Assembly: GCA_016927935.1 (NCBI GenBank)
Contig: JAFGLS010000131.1
Span: forward strand, 1-46,403
DNA: 46,403 nt
Direction: 5' to 3'
Source of the DNA: Syntrophaceae bacterium
GTDB taxonomy: Bacteria > Desulfobacterota > Syntrophia > Syntrophales > Smithellaceae
Made by a program: the position numbers and the translations under genes. This document shows positions 39,898 through 46,182 of this stretch, in pieces. Position 1 is the first letter of the stretch; each line of letters begins with the position of its first letter. The notes beneath the pieces were generated by a model. That model was not told the DNA's origin. It worked only from the letters and a program-made list of their open reading frames with translations, and ran no database searches.

Positions 39898-41922
39898 ATG
39901 CCGTTACGCCGCAGAAAAAGCAGGTATAATGAAGGTGAAGTAAGAAAACTTGCTTCGCTTTTCAATCTTTTTTCAATAGCGATCTTTTCTGTTTTGATAA
40001 TATTGGTTGCAGGAACACTAGGCTACTTTATTTTTACCATGGATTTGCCCGGTATTGATGCACTTAAGGATTATCGTCCCAGTATTTCCTCCCGTGTTTA
40101 TGATGATAAGAACGAACTGGTAGATGAATTTTTTCTGGAAGACAGAAAACTTGTTCGTATTGCCGAAGTTCCCAAGGTGGTAATCCAGGCTTTTGTTGCC
40201 GCGGAAGATTCCCGCTTTTTCGAACACAAAGGCTTTGATTTGCAAAGCATTTTTCGCGCGGTTTTTAAAAATATTGAAGCGGGACATATAATTCAGGGAG
40301 GCAGCACCATTACCCAGCAGGTGGCCAAGATGATGTATCTTTCTCCTGAAAAAAAATATACCCGTAAATTCAAAGAAGCTATTCTTGCTTATAAAATTGA
40401 TAAATATCTGACTAAACAAGAAATCCTCAATTTATATTTAAACCTGATTTACCTCGGGCACGGAACTTACGGGATAGAGTCGGCATCACTGGGTTATTTT
40501 GGGAAAAGTGCCAAGGATTTGAAATTGCATGAAGCTGCTCTTGTGGCCGGTATGCCCAAGGCTCCCAGCAACTATTCGCCGTTTATTCATTATGATAAAG
40601 CCAAACAAAGACAATATTATGTTCTTACGCGCATGATGGAGGACGACTACATTACAAAAGAGGAAATGGAAGAAGCATATGCCGCGCCGCTGAATTTGAG
40701 GCCGATTAGACCCAAAGATAAAATGGCGGCTTATTTTGTAGAAACCGTCCGACGCTATGTGCAGGAAAAATATGGCGCGGATGTCCTATATAAAGAAGGT
40801 CTTTCCATTTACACGACCCTGGACATGAACATACAGAAATACGCCGGCGAGGCTATGGAAAAAGGGTTGAAAGAATTGGAAGGGAGAAATAAATATGAAC
40901 CAGGCCTCGTTCAGGGAGCTCTTTTCTGTATGGATGTGAAGACAGGCGCTATCCGTGCAATGGTTGGTGGCCGTGATTTCAATAAAAGTGAATTCAACCG
41001 CGCAACGCAGTCACGTCGGCAACCTGGTTCAGCTTTTAAGCCGATTATTTACACGGCTGCTTTTGATAAGGGCATGACTCCGGCAACTGTAATTGTTGAT
41101 TCTCCAATTTCCGTGGACGATGTTTCTCAGCCGGACGGTGTCTGGAAACCAAAAAACTTTGATGGCAAGTTCATGGGTCCAATTACGATGAGGACGGCAC
41201 TGGTGCTGTCCCGCAATGTAGCAACGGTTAAAATTTTGCAGGAAATAGGAATCGATTACGCCGTATCATACGCCATGAACATGGGAATTAGCTCGCCTTT
41301 GGTTACTACCTTGTCTTTGGCCTTGGGTGTATCAGGTGTGACACTGCAGGAACTTGTTCAGGTCTATGATGTATTGATTAATGAAGGTAAAAAAGTAACC
41401 CCGTATTTCATTAAAAAAATTGTTGACCGTACCGGTAATGTTTTTGAAGAAACAATTCCTCAAGAGGAGCAGGTTATAGATCCCCGTATCGCTTTTCTGA
41501 CAACATATGTTATGCAGGATGTTGTAAAAAGTGGCACCGGAACGAGGGTCAGAAGCATAGCAAGGCCTGTTGCCGCCAAGACAGGAACGACAAATGACAA
41601 TCGTGACGCCTGGTTTATCGGTGCCACTCCTTCGCTGATTACCGGAGTATGGGTTGGTTTCGATCAGGAAGCATCATTGGGAGATCAGGAGGTTGGTGGA
41701 AGAACGGCGGCTCCTATCTGGCTTTATTTTATGGAGAAAGCTCTTGGCCAGACATCTGTGGAATCATTCCCCGTGCCGGAAGGCATTGTGTTTGAAAAAA
41801 TTGATCCTCAAACGGGAGAATATGTTGACGCTTCAGAAAAAGGAATTTCTGAAGCCTTTCTGCAGGGCACTTCCCCGAACAGCAGCAGTCTGGCTGATGA
41901 AATAAAAAGTTTATTTCGATAA
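39898..41922 (+). CDS. mrcA: Penicillin-binding protein 1A (bifunctional transglycosylase/transpeptidase)
   Basis: Polymerises and cross-links peptidoglycan outside the inner membrane. One membrane helix near residues 22-45 anchors it. The GT51 transglycosylase domain follows, with the catalytic Glu103 in AAEDSRFFEHKG and the motif GGSTITQQVAKM. The transpeptidase domain has the active-site Ser378 in QPGSAFKPIIY, the SRN-type motif (LSRNVATVK) and KTGTTNDNRDAWF. The length of 674 residues is a little short for class A PBP1A, which often has an extra OB-like insert. It is probably transcribed with tatC. Confidence 0.95.
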   Translation: MPLRRRKSRYNEGEVRKLASLFNLFSIAIFSVLIILVAGTLGYFIFTMDLPGIDALKDYRPSISSRVYDDKNELVDEFFLEDRKLVRIAEVPKVVIQAFVAAEDSRFFEHKGFDLQSIFRAVFKNIEAGHIIQGGSTITQQVAKMMYLSPEKKYTRKFKEAILAYKIDKYLTKQEILNLYLNLIYLGHGTYGIESASLGYFGKSAKDLKLHEAALVAGMPKAPSNYSPFIHYDKAKQRQYYVLTRMMEDDYITKEEMEEAYAAPLNLRPIRPKDKMAAYFVETVRRYVQEKYGADVLYKEGLSIYTTLDMNIQKYAGEAMEKGLKELEGRNKYEPGLVQGALFCMDVKTGAIRAMVGGRDFNKSEFNRATQSRRQPGSAFKPIIYTAAFDKGMTPATVIVDSPISVDDVSQPDGVWKPKNFDGKFMGPITMRTALVLSRNVATVKILQEIGIDYAVSYAMNMGISSPLVTTLSLALGVSGVTLQELVQVYDVLINEGKKVTPYFIKKIVDRTGNVFEETIPQEEQVIDPRIAFLTTYVMQDVVKSGTGTRVRSIARPVAAKTGTTNDNRDAWFIGATPSLITGVWVGFDQEASLGDQEVGGRTAAPIWLYFMEKALGQTSVESFPVPEGIVFEKIDPQTGEYVDASEKGISEAFLQGTSPNSSSLADEIKSLFR

Positions 41923-41993
41923 TCAGGAGTAATCTTTCAGTTAATTCTTAGATTGACTTAGAAAATGGCTATTCCGTAGCATAAAAAATGTAG

Positions 41994-42022
41994 TTGACAA
42001 ACTTTTTGTTTTTCGTTATTTA
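41994..42022 (+). promoter_or_regulatory. Predicted promoter of the ilv leader and operon
   Basis: A perfect TTGACA (41994-41999) and TATTTA (42017-42022) are separated by exactly 17 bases. Transcription would start near 42029, about 25 bases before the leader-peptide ATG. The position between the penicillin-binding protein gene and the leader fits an independent ilv transcription unit. Confidence 0.6.
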
Positions 42023-42054
42023 AAACGCAAGTTAATTTAAGGATATAAAATTTA

Positions 42055-42156
42055 ATGTTTCCTAAAGTTTTTAAAAGCGGCATTATCCGGATACCGGACA
42101 AAGTATTGATACTCGTAGTAGTCGTAATTACGGGGTCTGCCGCTCTGTATCTCTAG
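42055..42156 (+). CDS. ilvBHC operon leader peptide (branched-chain attenuator peptide)
   Basis: A 33-residue peptide with the run VLILVVVVI at residues 17-25 and further isoleucines at 10, 11 and 13. Nine consecutive branched-chain residues directly upstream of acetolactate synthase are what a ribosome-mediated attenuator peptide needs: shortage of charged tRNA for Val, Leu or Ile would stall the ribosome here. AAGGAT (42039-42044) is the likely ribosome site. The stop codon (TAG) lies in the loop of the first downstream hairpin. It is not similar in sequence to the enterobacterial IlvL peptide, as expected, since only composition matters. The peptide itself is presumably not functional. Confidence 0.85.
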   Translation: MFPKVFKSGIIRIPDKVLILVVVVITGSAALYL

Positions 42157-42260
42157 GAAATAATAACAAAAGATACAGGCCGCAGGCTCCTATAAAGCCC
42201 GCGGCTTTGTTGTTTTAAGCATGAAGCCGCTTTTTTCAAAAGGAAACTGGCGGCTTTTTT
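42145..42260 (+). promoter_or_regulatory. ilv attenuator: alternative hairpins and two terminators
   Basis: Hairpin 1 pairs CTGTATCT (42145-42152) with AGATACAG (42171-42178) perfectly and spans the leader stop codon. Terminator 1 pairs GCCGCaGGCT (42179-42188) with AGCCcGCGGC (42196-42205), followed by a T-rich tract to 42216. Terminator 2 pairs AAGCCGC (42224-42230) with GCGGCTT (42250-42256), followed by T's to 42260. The middle segments can pair instead: GCGGCTT (42201-42207) with AAGCCGC (42224-42230), an antiterminator that would break both terminators. This is the segment logic of a classical amino-acid attenuator. Which fold follows ribosome stalling is inference. Confidence 0.8.
42224..42260 (+). 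terminator. Attenuator terminator hairpin
   Basis: AAGCCGC (42224-42230) with GCGGCTT (42250-42256), seven base pairs with a 19-base loop, ending in a run of T's (42255-42260). It is the last terminator before the ilv structural genes. Confidence 0.75.
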
Positions 42261-42261
42261 A

Positions 42262-42720
42262 ATTAATGAGACTCGCTGAAAACGAGCACGGTGTGGTTTG
42301 TCCCTGCCACCTGAAGGTAATTCGCTCTAAGATTTTCCGATCACTTAGTTTCGGAAAATCAAGGCTCATTGAAGCGTTAGTCGAATAAGGGTTATTGTAA
42401 ATTATCACTGAAGTGCAACAAGGCGAAGGATTTTTGGATAGACGGCGTATAGTTCTTTACATAGTAATTCCGGCAAAAGCCGGAACCCAGGATTAATTAA
42501 ACTGGAGTCTAGCCTACGAGACTGTGTCACAATTATGGTAGATGCTATTCCGAGCGCATGAAAGGAATCTTAAAAGATCCCTCGTTGCACTCGAGACATG
42601 GATTTTCTCCGGAGTTTACCCTGAGCAAAAGTGAAGGGATCGAAATGACACAAAAAAAAGCATTACGACACAGTCTTTACGCCGGGGTGACGACCATGAA
42701 TATAGGAATACAAAAATAGG
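42262..42720. repeat. Repeat-filled gap between the ilv attenuator and ilvB
   Basis: About 470 bases without a gene. It contains a fragment of the modular hairpin family: the linker TAATGAGACT (42264-42273), a perfect ten-base-pair hairpin GATTTTCCGA (42331-42340) with TCGGAAAATC (42351-42360), then GGCTCATT and TTAGTCGAATAA. A second element is flanked by inverted ends GACTGTGTC (42520-42528) and GACACAGTC (42667-42675), about 156 bases, MITE-like. A short CCGGCAAAAGCCGG hairpin lies near 42470-42483. Confidence 0.65.
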
Positions 42721-42730
42721 GGGAAGCAGA

Positions 42731-44434
42731 ATGAAACTGAAAGGAACAGAAATACTGCTGAAGGCTCTCGAAGAGGAAAAGGTTGAGATTATCTTTGGGT
42801 ATCCGGGGGGAGCCGTTCTGGATATTTATGATCAGCTTTATAAAAGTAATATGAATCATATTCTTGTGCGGCACGAGCAGGGCGCGGTGCACGCTGCTGA
42901 CGGCTACGCCCGCGCTACGGGAAAAATTGGTGTTTGTCTGGTCACCTCCGGTCCCGGTGCCACCAATACGGTAACCGGAATCGCCACGGCGAATATGGAT
43001 TCCATTCCCTTGGTTGTTTTTACCGGACAGGTACCCACAGGGCTTATCGGCAATGATGCTTTTCAGGAGTGCGATATCACGGGCATAACACGTCCGTGTA
43101 CAAAACATAATTTTCTGGTACGCAATATTGATGATCTGGCTTCAACGATCAAGGAAGCTTTTCATATCGCCCGTTCGGGCAGACCGGGGCCAGTTCTTAT
43201 TGATTTGCCTAAAAATGTGATGGCGGCTTCCACGGAATATGATCCGGCCAACGTTAAAATCAGAAATCATGAGGCGGTATACAAACCGGCTTTCAAGAAA
43301 ATGGGTGTTTTACTGGAAATGCTGAACACGGCAAAAAAACCCCTGATTATGACCGGCGGCGGCGTTATTCTGGGAAAGGCTTCTGAACTTTTAACCGTAC
43401 TGGCCAGAAAATATCAGATTCCTGTTACTGGAACTCTGATGGGACTTGGTTCTTTTCCGGGCAGTGATCCTCTCTGGCTGGGCATGCTGGGGATGCACGG
43501 CACTTACTACGCGAACATGGCTGTCAGTCACTGCGATCTTTTGATTGCCGTGGGTGCCAGATTCGATGACAGGGTAACCGGTACTATCGAGACCTTTGCT
43601 GCAAACGCCAAAATTGTCCATATAGATATCGATCCTTCTTCCATTAATAAAAATGTGACTGTTGATTTACCGATCGTTGGGGATACACGGGCGGTGCTTA
43701 AAGATTTGATTAAATATTTTGAAGAGCACAATTTCACGGTTGATGCATCAGAGCGTCAGAAATGGCTGGGACAGATTGCCGAATGGAAGGAAAAAGTGCC
43801 TCTGACATATTGTCAGAACGGTAATGTAATCAAGCCGCAGTTTGTAATTGAAACTCTATATAAATTAACCAAGGGAGACGCAATTATCACAACGGAAGTC
43901 GGTCAGAATCAGATGTGGACAGCTCAGTTCTTTCCTTTCGATAAACCTAATACTTTTGTTTCTTCAGGAGGATTGGGAACGATGGGTTTCGGTTTCCCTG
44001 CGGCAATTGGTGTTAAGTGCGCTTTCCCGGACAAGCACGTTGTAGACGTCGCCGGCGACGGAAGTATCCAAATGAATATTCAGGAACTGGCCACAGCCGC
44101 GCAATACAAAATCAATGTAAAAATAGTTCTGCTGAATAACGGCTACCTGGGAATGGTTCGTCAGTGGCAGGAATTGTTCTATGAAAAGCGCTATTCACAC
44201 ACGGATATGACTTATGCCCCCGATTTTGTGAAACTGGCGGAGGCATACGGTGTCATTGGCCTGCGTGCCACCAAACCGGAAGAGGTGGAATCTGTTTTGA
44301 AAGAGGGTTTGTCTCTGGATAAGCCGGTGCTGATGGATTTCCGGGTGTCGCGGGAAGAATGCGTTTATCCCATGGTTCATCCGGGTGATTCGATTAGCAA
44401 TATGTCGCTGGGCAGCAGGGAGATGATCAATTAA
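42731..44434 (+). CDS. ilvB: Acetolactate synthase large subunit IlvB
   Basis: Thiamine-diphosphate enzyme that makes acetolactate or acetohydroxybutyrate, the first common step to valine, leucine and isoleucine. The catalytic glutamate is Glu49 in VRHEQGAVHAADGYAR; the FAD/middle domain follows; the thiamine-diphosphate motif GDGSIQMNIQELATAAQ with the closing LLNNGYLGMVRQWQ lies near the C-terminus. The length of 567 residues is typical. GGGGAAG just upstream supports the ATG. Expression is probably governed by the leader peptide and attenuator upstream. Confidence 0.97.
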   Translation: MKLKGTEILLKALEEEKVEIIFGYPGGAVLDIYDQLYKSNMNHILVRHEQGAVHAADGYARATGKIGVCLVTSGPGATNTVTGIATANMDSIPLVVFTGQVPTGLIGNDAFQECDITGITRPCTKHNFLVRNIDDLASTIKEAFHIARSGRPGPVLIDLPKNVMAASTEYDPANVKIRNHEAVYKPAFKKMGVLLEMLNTAKKPLIMTGGGVILGKASELLTVLARKYQIPVTGTLMGLGSFPGSDPLWLGMLGMHGTYYANMAVSHCDLLIAVGARFDDRVTGTIETFAANAKIVHIDIDPSSINKNVTVDLPIVGDTRAVLKDLIKYFEEHNFTVDASERQKWLGQIAEWKEKVPLTYCQNGNVIKPQFVIETLYKLTKGDAIITTEVGQNQMWTAQFFPFDKPNTFVSSGGLGTMGFGFPAAIGVKCAFPDKHVVDVAGDGSIQMNIQELATAAQYKINVKIVLLNNGYLGMVRQWQELFYEKRYSHTDMTYAPDFVKLAEAYGVIGLRATKPEEVESVLKEGLSLDKPVLMDFRVSREECVYPMVHPGDSISNMSLGSREMIN

Positions 44435-44458
44435 ACTTTTATGGGAAAGGAAGAGAAA

Positions 44459-44944
44459 ATGGAAAAAAAGGAACATATAATTTCGATACTTGTTTACAAC
44501 AAGCCGGACGTTCTGGCAAGAATTGCCGGAGTACTCGGTGGTAAGGGGTATAACATAGAAAGCCTTTGCGTGAATACGACAATGCAGTATGAAATATCGA
44601 AAATAATTATGACCACCATTGGCACCAAGGAAACGATTAACAGAATTGAAGGTCAGTTACGCAGGCTTGTTGATGTTATTCAGGTTGATGATTTGACCAA
44701 TGTGGAATCAATTCACCGCGAGTTGATTCTTGTTCGCCTGAATTTGACAGCGGATAAAAAAGAACAGATAAAAAAGGCTATTGACACGAATAAATGGAAA
44801 GTTATAGTAAATGCTGATACTTATATAATTCTGGAAATAACCGGTGACCAGTCGCAGATTGGTTTCGCGCTGGCACGTCTGGAACCTCTGGGCATAGCTG
44901 ATATATCAAGAACAGGAATTATAGCTTTAAATTTAGAAAATTAA
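44459..44944 (+). CDS. ilvH: Acetolactate synthase small (regulatory) subunit
   Basis: ACT-domain subunit that confers feedback inhibition by valine on IlvB. The N-terminal ACT domain reads HIISILVYNKPDVLARIAGV with the GYNIESLCVN segment; the second half has LTADKKEQIKKAI and the DYTIILEITG-like TYIILEITGD. The ATG at 44459 is preferred because GGAAAGGAAGAG lies right before it and it gives 161 residues, close to other IlvH/IlvN proteins; an upstream ATG at 44441 would add six residues. It starts 24 bases after ilvB. Confidence 0.94.
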   Translation: MEKKEHIISILVYNKPDVLARIAGVLGGKGYNIESLCVNTTMQYEISKIIMTTIGTKETINRIEGQLRRLVDVIQVDDLTNVESIHRELILVRLNLTADKKEQIKKAIDTNKWKVIVNADTYIILEITGDQSQIGFALARLEPLGIADISRTGIIALNLEN

Positions 44945-45123: not shown

Positions 45124-46182
45124 ATGGCAAAAATAAATTTTGGCGGCGTCATGGAAGACGTCATTACAAACAAGGAATTTCCGCTGAAAAAAGCTCAGAA
45201 AGTTCTGAAAAATGAAGTGGTGGCAGTGCTCGGTTACGGTGTTCAGGGGCCGGCGCAGGCGGCCAATATGAGAGACAACGGCATTAAGGTGATTATCGGT
45301 CAGGCAAAAGAAGACAAATTTTATTGGAAGAAGGCCGTTGCCGATGGATGGAAACCGGGTAGAACACTTTTTCCTATAGAAGAAGCGGTCCAGCGTGGTA
45401 CGATTATTCAGTACCTGGTATCCGATGCCGCGCAGAAAATTCTCTGGCCCAAGGTCAAAGCCAATCTGAAAAAAGGAGATGTTCTTTATTTCTCGCACGG
45501 CTTCTCCATCGTGTATAAGGATCAGACCGGCGTTATTCCGCCTGATTTTGTTGATGTAATAATGGTTGCGCCGAAAGGTTCAGGAACCAGCGTTCGTCGG
45601 AATTTTCTGGACGGCAGCGGTATAAACTCCAGTTTTGCCATTCATCAGGATGCTACCGGTCGCGCCATGGAAAGAGCGCTGGCTTTGGGTATTGCCATCG
45701 GGTCAGGATTTTTATTCCCGACAACTTTCCAGATGGAAGTTTACAGTGATTTAACCGGTGAGCGCGGTGTGCTTATGGGAGCGCTGGCGGGAATCATGGA
45801 AGCACAGTACAATGAACTGCGCAAACATGGACATACTCCCAGCGAAGCATTCAATGAAACTGTTGAAGAATTGACACAGAGCCTTATCCGTCTGGTTGCG
45901 GAAAACGGCATGGATTGGATGTATGCCAATTGTTCCACCACGGCACAGCGCGGTGCTCTGGATTGGCGCCACAAATTCCGTCAGGCAGTGGAACCGGTAT
46001 TTGCCGAACTTTATAAATCGGTAGCAAGCGGCAAGGAGACGGCGATTGTTTTGAAGGCCAATAGCGCTCCCGATTACAAAGTCAAGCTGGAAGCCGAGCT
46101 CAAGGAAATGCGCGATTCGGAAATGTGGAAAGCGGGCGCTGCCGTACGTGAACTGAGGCCGGAAAGACGCAAGAAGAAATGA
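45124..46182 (+). CDS. ilvC: Ketol-acid reductoisomerase (NADP-dependent type)
   Basis: Second enzyme of branched-chain amino acid synthesis, isomerising and reducing acetolactate. The Rossmann motif is VLGYGVQGPAQAANMRDNG; the catalytic domain shows VAPKGSGTSVRR, SDLTGERGVLMGALAG and the ETVEELTQSL metal-binding helix. The length of 352 residues and the GPAQA form of the nucleotide-binding loop are closer to the Bacteroidetes/Chlorobi-like branch of class I enzymes than to typical GSQG(H)A-type proteobacterial ones, an impression to be confirmed by phylogeny. GGGGG just upstream supports the ATG. Confidence 0.95.
   Translation: MAKINFGGVMEDVITNKEFPLKKAQKVLKNEVVAVLGYGVQGPAQAANMRDNGIKVIIGQAKEDKFYWKKAVADGWKPGRTLFPIEEAVQRGTIIQYLVSDAAQKILWPKVKANLKKGDVLYFSHGFSIVYKDQTGVIPPDFVDVIMVAPKGSGTSVRRNFLDGSGINSSFAIHQDATGRAMERALALGIAIGSGFLFPTTFQMEVYSDLTGERGVLMGALAGIMEAQYNELRKHGHTPSEAFNETVEELTQSLIRLVAENGMDWMYANCSTTAQRGALDWRHKFRQAVEPVFAELYKSVASGKETAIVLKANSAPDYKVKLEAELKEMRDSEMWKAGAAVRELRPERRKKK

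Follow-up and report, generated by a model that had tools for sequence, protein, structure and literature searches.

How is transcription of the ilvB-ilvN-ilvC operon of a Syntrophaceae bacterium adjusted to the supply of branched-chain amino acids, and does the RNA ahead of ilvB take part? We analysed a stretch of 46,403 nucleotides (contig JAFGLS010000131.1, in the following the window) from a draft genome of 3.38 Mb. Here a 674-aa ORF is followed by a promoter, a 33-codon ORF, two U-tailed hairpins, a spacer of some 470 bases and the genes ilvB, ilvN and ilvC. An earlier note on this DNA had proposed a ribosome-mediated attenuator ahead of the operon in Syntrophales, and conservation together with folding around a modelled ribosome upholds that proposal. 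Taken together, the computational evidence makes it very probable that the locus encodes a ribosome-mediated transcription attenuator with tandem terminators before ilvBNC. The promoter, the 33-codon ORF, its nine Leu/Ile/Val codons and the T-tailed hairpins had been read directly from the sequence, and all their coordinates are correct. The features are as follows (+, forward strand).

39898-41922: 674-aa ORF upstream of the promoter, by eye a penicillin-binding protein
41994-41999 and 42017-42022 (+): TTGACA and TATTTA of a sigma-70-type promoter with a 17-nt spacer, read from the sequence
42055-42156 (+): leader peptide ORF, 33 codons, MFPKVFKSGIIRIPDKVLILVVVVITGSAALYL and stop
42058-42067 and 42076-42082 (+): segment 0, start-codon region, predicted to pair with 42151-42160 and 42138-42144 when untranslated
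42103-42129 (+): sensing run VLILVVVVI, codons 17-25 (GTA TTG ATA CTC GTA GTA GTC GTA ATT)
42132-42153 (+): segment A, 5′ arm of the predicted antiterminator, the last ORF codons up to the stop
42145-42152 with 42171-42178 (+): hairpin spanning the stop codon, read from the sequence
42154-42156 (+): stop codon of the leader ORF
42170-42190 (+): segment B, 3′ arm of the predicted antiterminator, of which 42179-42187 doubles as the 5′ arm of terminator 1
42179-42216 (+): predicted terminator 1 (B:C), stem 42179-42187/42197-42205, U-rich tail TTTGTTGTTTT at 42206-42216
42201-42209 with 42222-42230 (+): possible second antiterminator C:D
42223-42260 (+): predicted terminator 2 (D:E), stem 42223-42230/42250-42257, six T at 42255-42260
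42731-44434 (+): ilvB, acetolactate synthase large subunit, 567 aa (Pfam TPP_enzyme N/M/C)
44441-44944 (+): ilvN/ilvH, acetolactate synthase small subunit (Pfam ALS_ss_C and ACT)
45124-46182 (+): ilvC, ketol-acid reductoisomerase (Pfam KARI_N and KARI_C)

Both the RNA and the codon run stand out from chance expectation. The region 42029-42262 folds with a z-score of −4.76 and none of 200 shuffles was equally stable, and a run of nine Ile, Leu or Val codons in an ATG-started ORF of 15-60 codons appeared in one of 3000 Markov-random gaps of equal length. GTT is the commonest Val codon in the 30 long ORFs of the window (42%), yet it is avoided by the sensing run, which does use CTC, a minor Leu codon in the same ORFs (7%). 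A simple promoter scan did not list the TTGACA/TATTTA promoter and reported one other site (shuffle mean 2.3); TATTTA fits TATAAT at three of six positions and the scan demands four, which explains the omission. In 33 of 34 family leaders, the window included, a full TTGACA is located 54-67 nt ahead of the start codon; the exception, L015, has only 35 bases of contig at that place.

Most likely, the position of the ribosome on the Val/Leu-rich peptide decides whether transcription halts at the consecutive terminators. In the model, the RNA segments 0-A-B-C-D-E would pair alternatively. With ample branched-chain aminoacyl-tRNA, the ribosome would reach the stop codon and cover A, which would allow B:C (terminator 1) and D:E (terminator 2) to form and end transcription before ilvB. 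A ribosome waiting on the Val/Leu/Ile run would leave A, located just downstream, free to pair with B once this has been transcribed; A:B would then block terminator 1, and the freed C may pair with D, weakening terminator 2. In an untranslated leader, segment 0 could pair with A, so that the terminators would be allowed to form. We infer for this model that the leader ORF is translated, that both hairpins terminate transcription, that charged tRNA is the signal and that C:D relieves terminator 2. The locus would thereby combine the hallmarks of a classical attenuator, namely an ORF with cognate codons, two predicted terminators before ilvB and a predicted ribosome-dependent antiterminator for terminator 1.

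In the A:B antiterminator, 42132-42153 and 42170-42190 form some 20 bp and thereby take up the 5′ arm of terminator 1. The stop-spanning hairpin of the earlier note is present and turned out to be the inner end of this long helix. The note had assigned the antiterminator role to 42201-42207 (GCGGCTT) and 42224-42230 (AAGCCGC), which are exactly complementary. Because this pairing is not favoured in equilibrium folding, it was demoted from main switch to a weaker candidate for a second stage (C:D).

Conservation in close relatives, on which the proposal depended, was found. We sought ilvB in 60 relatives and read the upstream DNA at 55 loci. Among these relatives, 35 of the 36 family genomes have ilvB (G028 gave only a weak match), and the leader lies directly upstream of it in 34 of the 35. 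The remaining genome, G011, carries the leader at a contig end away from ilvB (L266, G011:C349:12143-12235). Its ilvB (L016) has unrelated upstream DNA, pointing to an assembly break or a rearrangement. In the genus, the sensing run mostly reads VLVLVVVVL and the peptide mostly MFLK...G...VLVLVVVVLTGSAALYL, with MFLKDL...TGSAALYL conserved. All 34 family leaders have branched-chain-rich runs, which are weaker in L019, L026 and L030, and their terminator 1, like that of the window, ends in a U-rich tail. The conserved GGGGTCTGCCGC is read in a different frame in L025, L027 and L028 with the RNA unchanged, and other family leaders have 2-nt insertions with the RNA still the same. This suggests that outside the run the constraint acts at the level of the RNA.

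Both sets of pairings are preserved in the 34-row alignment of the family leaders. In the arrangement 0:A, B:C and D:E, 94.3% of the cells are paired with 15 two-sided changes (4.8 in shuffles); for A:B and C:D the values are 96.9% and 4 (1.3 in shuffles), and slid controls for both schemes reached 34-56%. Taken helix by helix, 94.4% and 94.5% of the cells are paired in the two helices of 0:A (5 pairs changed on both sides), 97.5% and 96.0% in those of A:B and 98.7% in D:E. The five core pairs of terminator 1 are found in 34 of 34 leaders, and 8-9 of the 9 C:D pairs are present in each. Columns 139/155 of terminator 1 hold 16 G-C pairs, 5 A-U pairs and 12 unpaired A-C combinations, the window being among the latter. 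Since the stem interiors hardly vary, the family shows conservation more than covariation.

The covarying stems that had been expected in relatives appear across families, where A:B, B:C and D:E covary. The distal part of A:B differs between families and still matches (TGTATCT/AGATACA in Smithella, GGTTTC/GAAAC and TTGATCC/GGAATCAA elsewhere). In a permutation of 71 sequences from 15 families (L235 and L237, missed by the pattern, were left out), the 15 family representatives had a mean A:B energy of −8.05 kcal/mol with their own arms and −5.77 kcal/mol with exchanged arms, and 0 of 2000 permutations were as good. For B:C and for D:E, 0 of 5000 permutations each were as good. A further inverted repeat (I2), which would pair segment 0 with D, was discarded, as many relatives, judged by eye, do not preserve it.

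To model the ribosome, the 12 nt beyond the first base of the A-site codon were hidden and the RNA downstream was folded. For a ribosome placed on the core Val codons, A:B had a mean probability of 0.92 over 34 leaders and terminator 1 one of 0.03; for a ribosome at the stop codon the means were 0.00 for A:B, 0.92 for terminator 1 and 0.94 for terminator 2. In the window, terminator 1 changed from 0.00 with the ribosome on the run to 1.00 with the ribosome at the stop, where terminator 2 had 0.99. The switch to terminator 1 occurs as the ribosome moves from codon −11 to codon −9 relative to the stop, which is the end of the run. Exceptions are L023, which retains terminator 1 at 0.80-0.92 when stalled, and L007 and L027, in which terminator 1 reaches only 0.41 and 0.07 at the stop. 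Without a ribosome, 0:A had a mean of 0.74 (0.96 in the window) and terminator 1 of 0.80; 0:A was below 0.5 in six of the 34 leaders (L008, L009, L017, L024, L027 and L035) and terminator 1 in seven. When transcription was allowed to proceed only to B, this segment was paired upstream with a probability of 0.88 in the stalled state and 0.00 at the stop, a difference seen in 34 of 34 family leaders; with shuffled A the stalled value was 0.50, and 12 of 680 shuffles reached the real one. This dependence of A:B and terminator 1 on the position of the ribosome predicts opening of terminator 1 under a shortage of branched-chain aminoacyl-tRNA.

Whether stalling would also relieve terminator 2 is uncertain. 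Ribosome control might be confined to terminator 1, with terminator 2 acting as an unregulated, leaky stop that sets a ceiling on expression; we put this at a little below an even chance. Such an arrangement would agree with the stalled state at equilibrium, in which terminator 2 has 0.97 and C:D 0.02 in the window, the mean for terminator 2 over 34 leaders is 0.52-0.58, and 17-20 of the 34 leaders exceed 0.5 at codons −18 to −12. It is also favoured by the energies, D:E being on average 6.2 kcal/mol stronger than C:D, with a low barrier from C:D to D:E of 2.8-7.6 kcal/mol (mean 5.5). Against it stand the C:D duplexes themselves, which average −15.3 kcal/mol in 93 leaders and −6.2 kcal/mol with shuffled D, own pairs being better than swapped ones. 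C and D also change together, as in GCGGCTCT/AGAGCCGC in L220 and L230 and CACGGCC/GGCCGTG in L242, and a strong terminator that is always on would presumably be costly before an ilv operon. Permutations of C:D speak for both sides. A first one, with badly cut arms and A/T-rich flanks, showed no effect: the null equalled or surpassed the real pairs in 782 of 1500 permutations for all types and in 1005 of 1500 for ilv only. Arms were then aligned with R2, a covariance model built from 13 trpE leaders with the codon run excluded (94 loci including 11 of the 34 family ilvB leaders; L239 was dropped, its terminator 2 being unaligned), and here, in 5000 permutations each, none for all types and 3 for ilv only were as good. 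The B:E control was likewise low (4 of 5000 and 48 of 5000), which indicates that the two hairpins vary together and are kept alike, rather than that C:D is proven.

Two explanations that dispense with attenuation altogether are both highly improbable. The ORF could encode a functional small hydrophobic, membrane-located protein followed by ordinary terminators, and the hydrophobic VLILVVVVI and the conservation of the peptide in the genus would fit this. However, the frame of the C-terminus differs in relatives that keep the RNA, leaders of other families have little in common beyond the codon run and a GTAA-like end, and Trp, Phe, Tyr or Leu codons replace the run before other operons. A T-box, a metabolite riboswitch or a protein-bound leader would equally place a structured leader with terminators ahead of an amino-acid operon; the runs of cognate codons are not explained by a riboswitch, and the window contains no Rfam family at the gathering score, the leader giving sub-threshold matches only. 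This holds for the Rfam Thr, Phe, Trp, Leu and His leaders and the trpB motif, and for the T-box model, which also had no match in 41900-42760 at E ≤ 5. Among 37 related loci, no leader reached the Rfam gathering threshold and the only match above it was a tRNA in L044; the best sub-threshold scores were Phe_leader 32.4 of 55 and trpB 32.4 of 59 (both L245) and Thr_leader 31.5 of 55 (L048). The ribosome-mediated attenuator is the preferred reading.

How far does this leader extend? A covariance model (R1) built from segments A to E, with the codon run left out, matched 136 of 155 class genomes at E ≤ 1e-3, 129 of them at ≤ 1.5e-8 by table count; the order and class sets are the same 155 genomes. 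At all 34 R1 loci read outside the family and within the class, ilvB is located downstream (48-74% identical to that of the window over the part compared). Among the 80 named loci listed from a pattern scan, 46 match R1 at E ≤ 1.1e-13, all with titles of Smithella, Syntrophaceae, Syntrophales, Syntrophobacterales, Deltaproteobacteria or unspecific Proteobacteria. Smithella sp. SCADC, Smithella sp. SDB_sulfate1 and Smithellaceae are among the records with high-scoring matches to the leader model, which places the window near Smithella (Smithellaceae, Syntrophales, Syntrophia). In a phylum sample of 395 genomes, R1 was found in 26 at E ≤ 1e-5, 12 of them outside the class. Six of these 12 loci were read: one precedes ilvB, two Leu-rich leaders precede leuA and three Phe/Tyr-rich ones (for example FEFYFWYFSYFYFY) precede ADTH synthase.

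A second kind of ilvB leader occurs in the same order. Classed by eye, 20 order-level loci ahead of the best ilvB match or a near one comprised 14 single-terminator leaders, five tandem ones and one of neither type (G053). The single-terminator Val/Ile leaders (L038, L039, L042, L044-L052, L054 and L055) have the stop inside the presumed antiterminator arm (GCTGGGTGATGG/ACCGTTACCAGC/GGTAACGGTTTT). In G054, G050, G052 and G056 the R1 leader stands before a second ilvB paralog (44-47% identical), the first ilvB having a single-terminator leader. There the paralogous ilvB pair with its tandem and single-terminator leaders lies close together (G054:C22, G050:C26, G052:C228 and G056:C149).

Further R1 matches in the class have other codon runs: WWW(W) before trpE, FFxFF before a periplasmic binding protein and FWGYYY before DAHP synthase, the genes having been identified with Pfam for one of each kind and by similarity for the rest. 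The genome of the window itself has a leader of the tandem-terminator kind, whose peptide includes four Trp codons (MKTTIKTLILNNWWWWNLSGRIFRR and stop), before trpE on another contig (G000:C132:3552-3677, L246:1498-1623). The trpE-derived model R2 matched 128 of 154 order genomes, the best match not always being a trpE leader, and it also found ilvB leaders (best 2.1e-7, in G018). Twenty further R2 loci comprised 14 Phe leaders before a binding protein, four before an acyl-CoA ligase (an assignment below the curated NCBIfam cut-offs), one Trp leader before a TrpB-like gene and one trpE leader. The named gene was downstream in 78 of 78 read loci that had a model match and enough DNA. As the codon runs lie outside both models, the match between run and gene is independent evidence.

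The same ribosome dependence was predicted for 43 of 43 leaders of the other kinds (L240 included; L311 was left out, its Phe-run ORF not closing near A), with B paired upstream at 0.83 when stalled and 0.06 at the stop. Shuffled A gave 0.59 in this test, and 78 of 860 shuffles reached the real value. With the ribosome at the first run codon, equilibrium folding of 24 such leaders lowered terminator 1 to less than 0.5 in just five, so that the switch in these leaders would need kinetic trapping by A:B.

Apparently, several amino-acid operons in Syntrophia and in some other bacteria of the phylum employ this build, each kind with its own sensing codons. That one tandem-terminator RNA was copied between operons in Desulfobacterota and retuned by little but its sensing codons has almost an even chance, for the set comprising Val/Leu/Ile leaders of ilvB, Leu leaders of leuA, Trp leaders of trpE and a trpB-like gene, Phe/Tyr(/Trp) leaders of DAHP/ADTH synthase and Phe leaders of the ABC transporter and acyl-CoA ligase genes. 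Convergence on a good design, instead of descent, could explain the layout common to the ilvB, trpE, aromatic, leuA and Phe-linked genes, and we judge it possible, at somewhat less than even. Many R1 matches to other leaders are weak (those listed range from 6.5e-10 in G078 to about 1e-4), and, according to PMC1262725, attenuator cores in other bacteria conserve complementary GGCC-rGCy-GGCC triples at large distances. Against convergence, the two separately built models match reciprocally, and the leaders share the order of A to E, a similar spacing, two U-tailed hairpins and RGCCG/CGGCYTTT cores.

No known Phe biosynthesis gene is located behind the FFxFF leaders, which precede an ABC-type binding protein (L250-L252, L298-L302, L304, L305, L307-L310, L313, L314 and L316) or an acyl-CoA ligase (L297, L303, L306 and L311). 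Salvage of aryl acids for Phe synthesis is one guess for the role of these genes. In L312 (G062:C135), a leader with Trp codons (LFWWWQ) and an imperfect first hairpin precedes the TrpB-like gene.

The ilvGMEDA and ilvBN attenuators of E. coli and Salmonella have a single terminator. Like the present leader, they combine a branched-chain-rich leader peptide before acetolactate synthase genes with a mutually exclusive terminator and antiterminator; they differ in sequence, and the antiterminator described here begins in the last codons and spans the stop. Their existence is noted in PMC1183508. The locus had been likened to the enterobacterial ilv, leu and trp leaders; it has two predicted terminators in tandem, and its logic is closest to the his leader rather than to that of a trp or leu leader with one terminator. 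In the his leader of E. coli and Salmonella, AB, CD and EF pairings alternate with BC and DE (PMC10989985), and the extra hairpin before the terminator was proposed to prevent read-through after ribosome release (PMC1183508). Both leaders have a sensing-codon run, an extra hairpin and six segments, with 1:2, 3:4 and 5:6 for stop or 2:3 and 4:5 for go (predicted in the present case). Of this alternation, 0:A, B:C, D:E and A:B are supported here, and 4:5 (C:D) is complementary and weak at equilibrium. In contrast to the his leader, the middle hairpin is U-tailed, giving two predicted terminators instead of a U tract on the last hairpin only, segments 0 and A flank the sensing run, the operon is ilv and there is no match to the Rfam His leader.

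The view in the earlier note that ilv attenuators outside enterobacteria are little described is partly right, as candidate attenuators or terminators before ilvB in Actinobacteria (PMC1262725) and the ilvBNC attenuator of C. glutamicum (PMC11857589) are described. The latter (see also PMC10272879) was tested by mutation and has one terminator. It resembles the present leader in its uORF with Leu/Val codons before ilvB and in its anti-antiterminator, antiterminator and terminator hairpins, but it has three hairpins with one terminator and belongs to a different phylum. Nearer by, the single-terminator ilvB leaders of the same order share the Val/Ile-rich peptide and the stop inside the presumed antiterminator arm; unlike the leader of the window, they have one terminator (ACCGTTACC.../GGTAACGGTTTT) without the second module. 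The text of a broad terminator survey (PMC2965389) does not contain 'delta', 'syntroph', 'ilv' or 'geobacter', the available portions of two motif surveys (PMC8632094 and PMC11109978) hold no leader of the present kind, and no Syntrophia or Smithella leader was among the best literature matches, most subscription papers being outside the coverage. We conclude that the attenuator is genuine, ordinary in principle and unusual in its layout and breadth: a tandem-terminator variant.

To our knowledge, little gene regulation has been described in syntrophs such as Smithella. As the codon run names the amino acid, regulation becomes predictable from the sequence, for example control by Phe of an acyl-CoA ligase and a transporter. 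Coupling of the two terminators, if real, would make the leader a natural attenuator with a tight off state. If the copies are paralogous, they would show how an RNA switch is re-targeted by codon change, and, should the copying have taken place, a single class would rely on paralogous copies of one switch to manage much of its branched-chain and aromatic amino-acid economy. With its ilvB and trpE models matching most genomes of the sets searched, the leader would constitute a family absent from Rfam.

The spacer between the leader and ilvB has features of its own. Its part 42268-42715 contains repeated elements, which match 16 other places in the genome at 75-95% identity. Within it, at 42519-42676, two 15-nt arms form an imperfect inverted repeat around 128 nt and may mark a small MITE. 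DNA starting with GAGACT follows directly after the T tract of terminator 2 in L002, L006, L011, L022 and L023.
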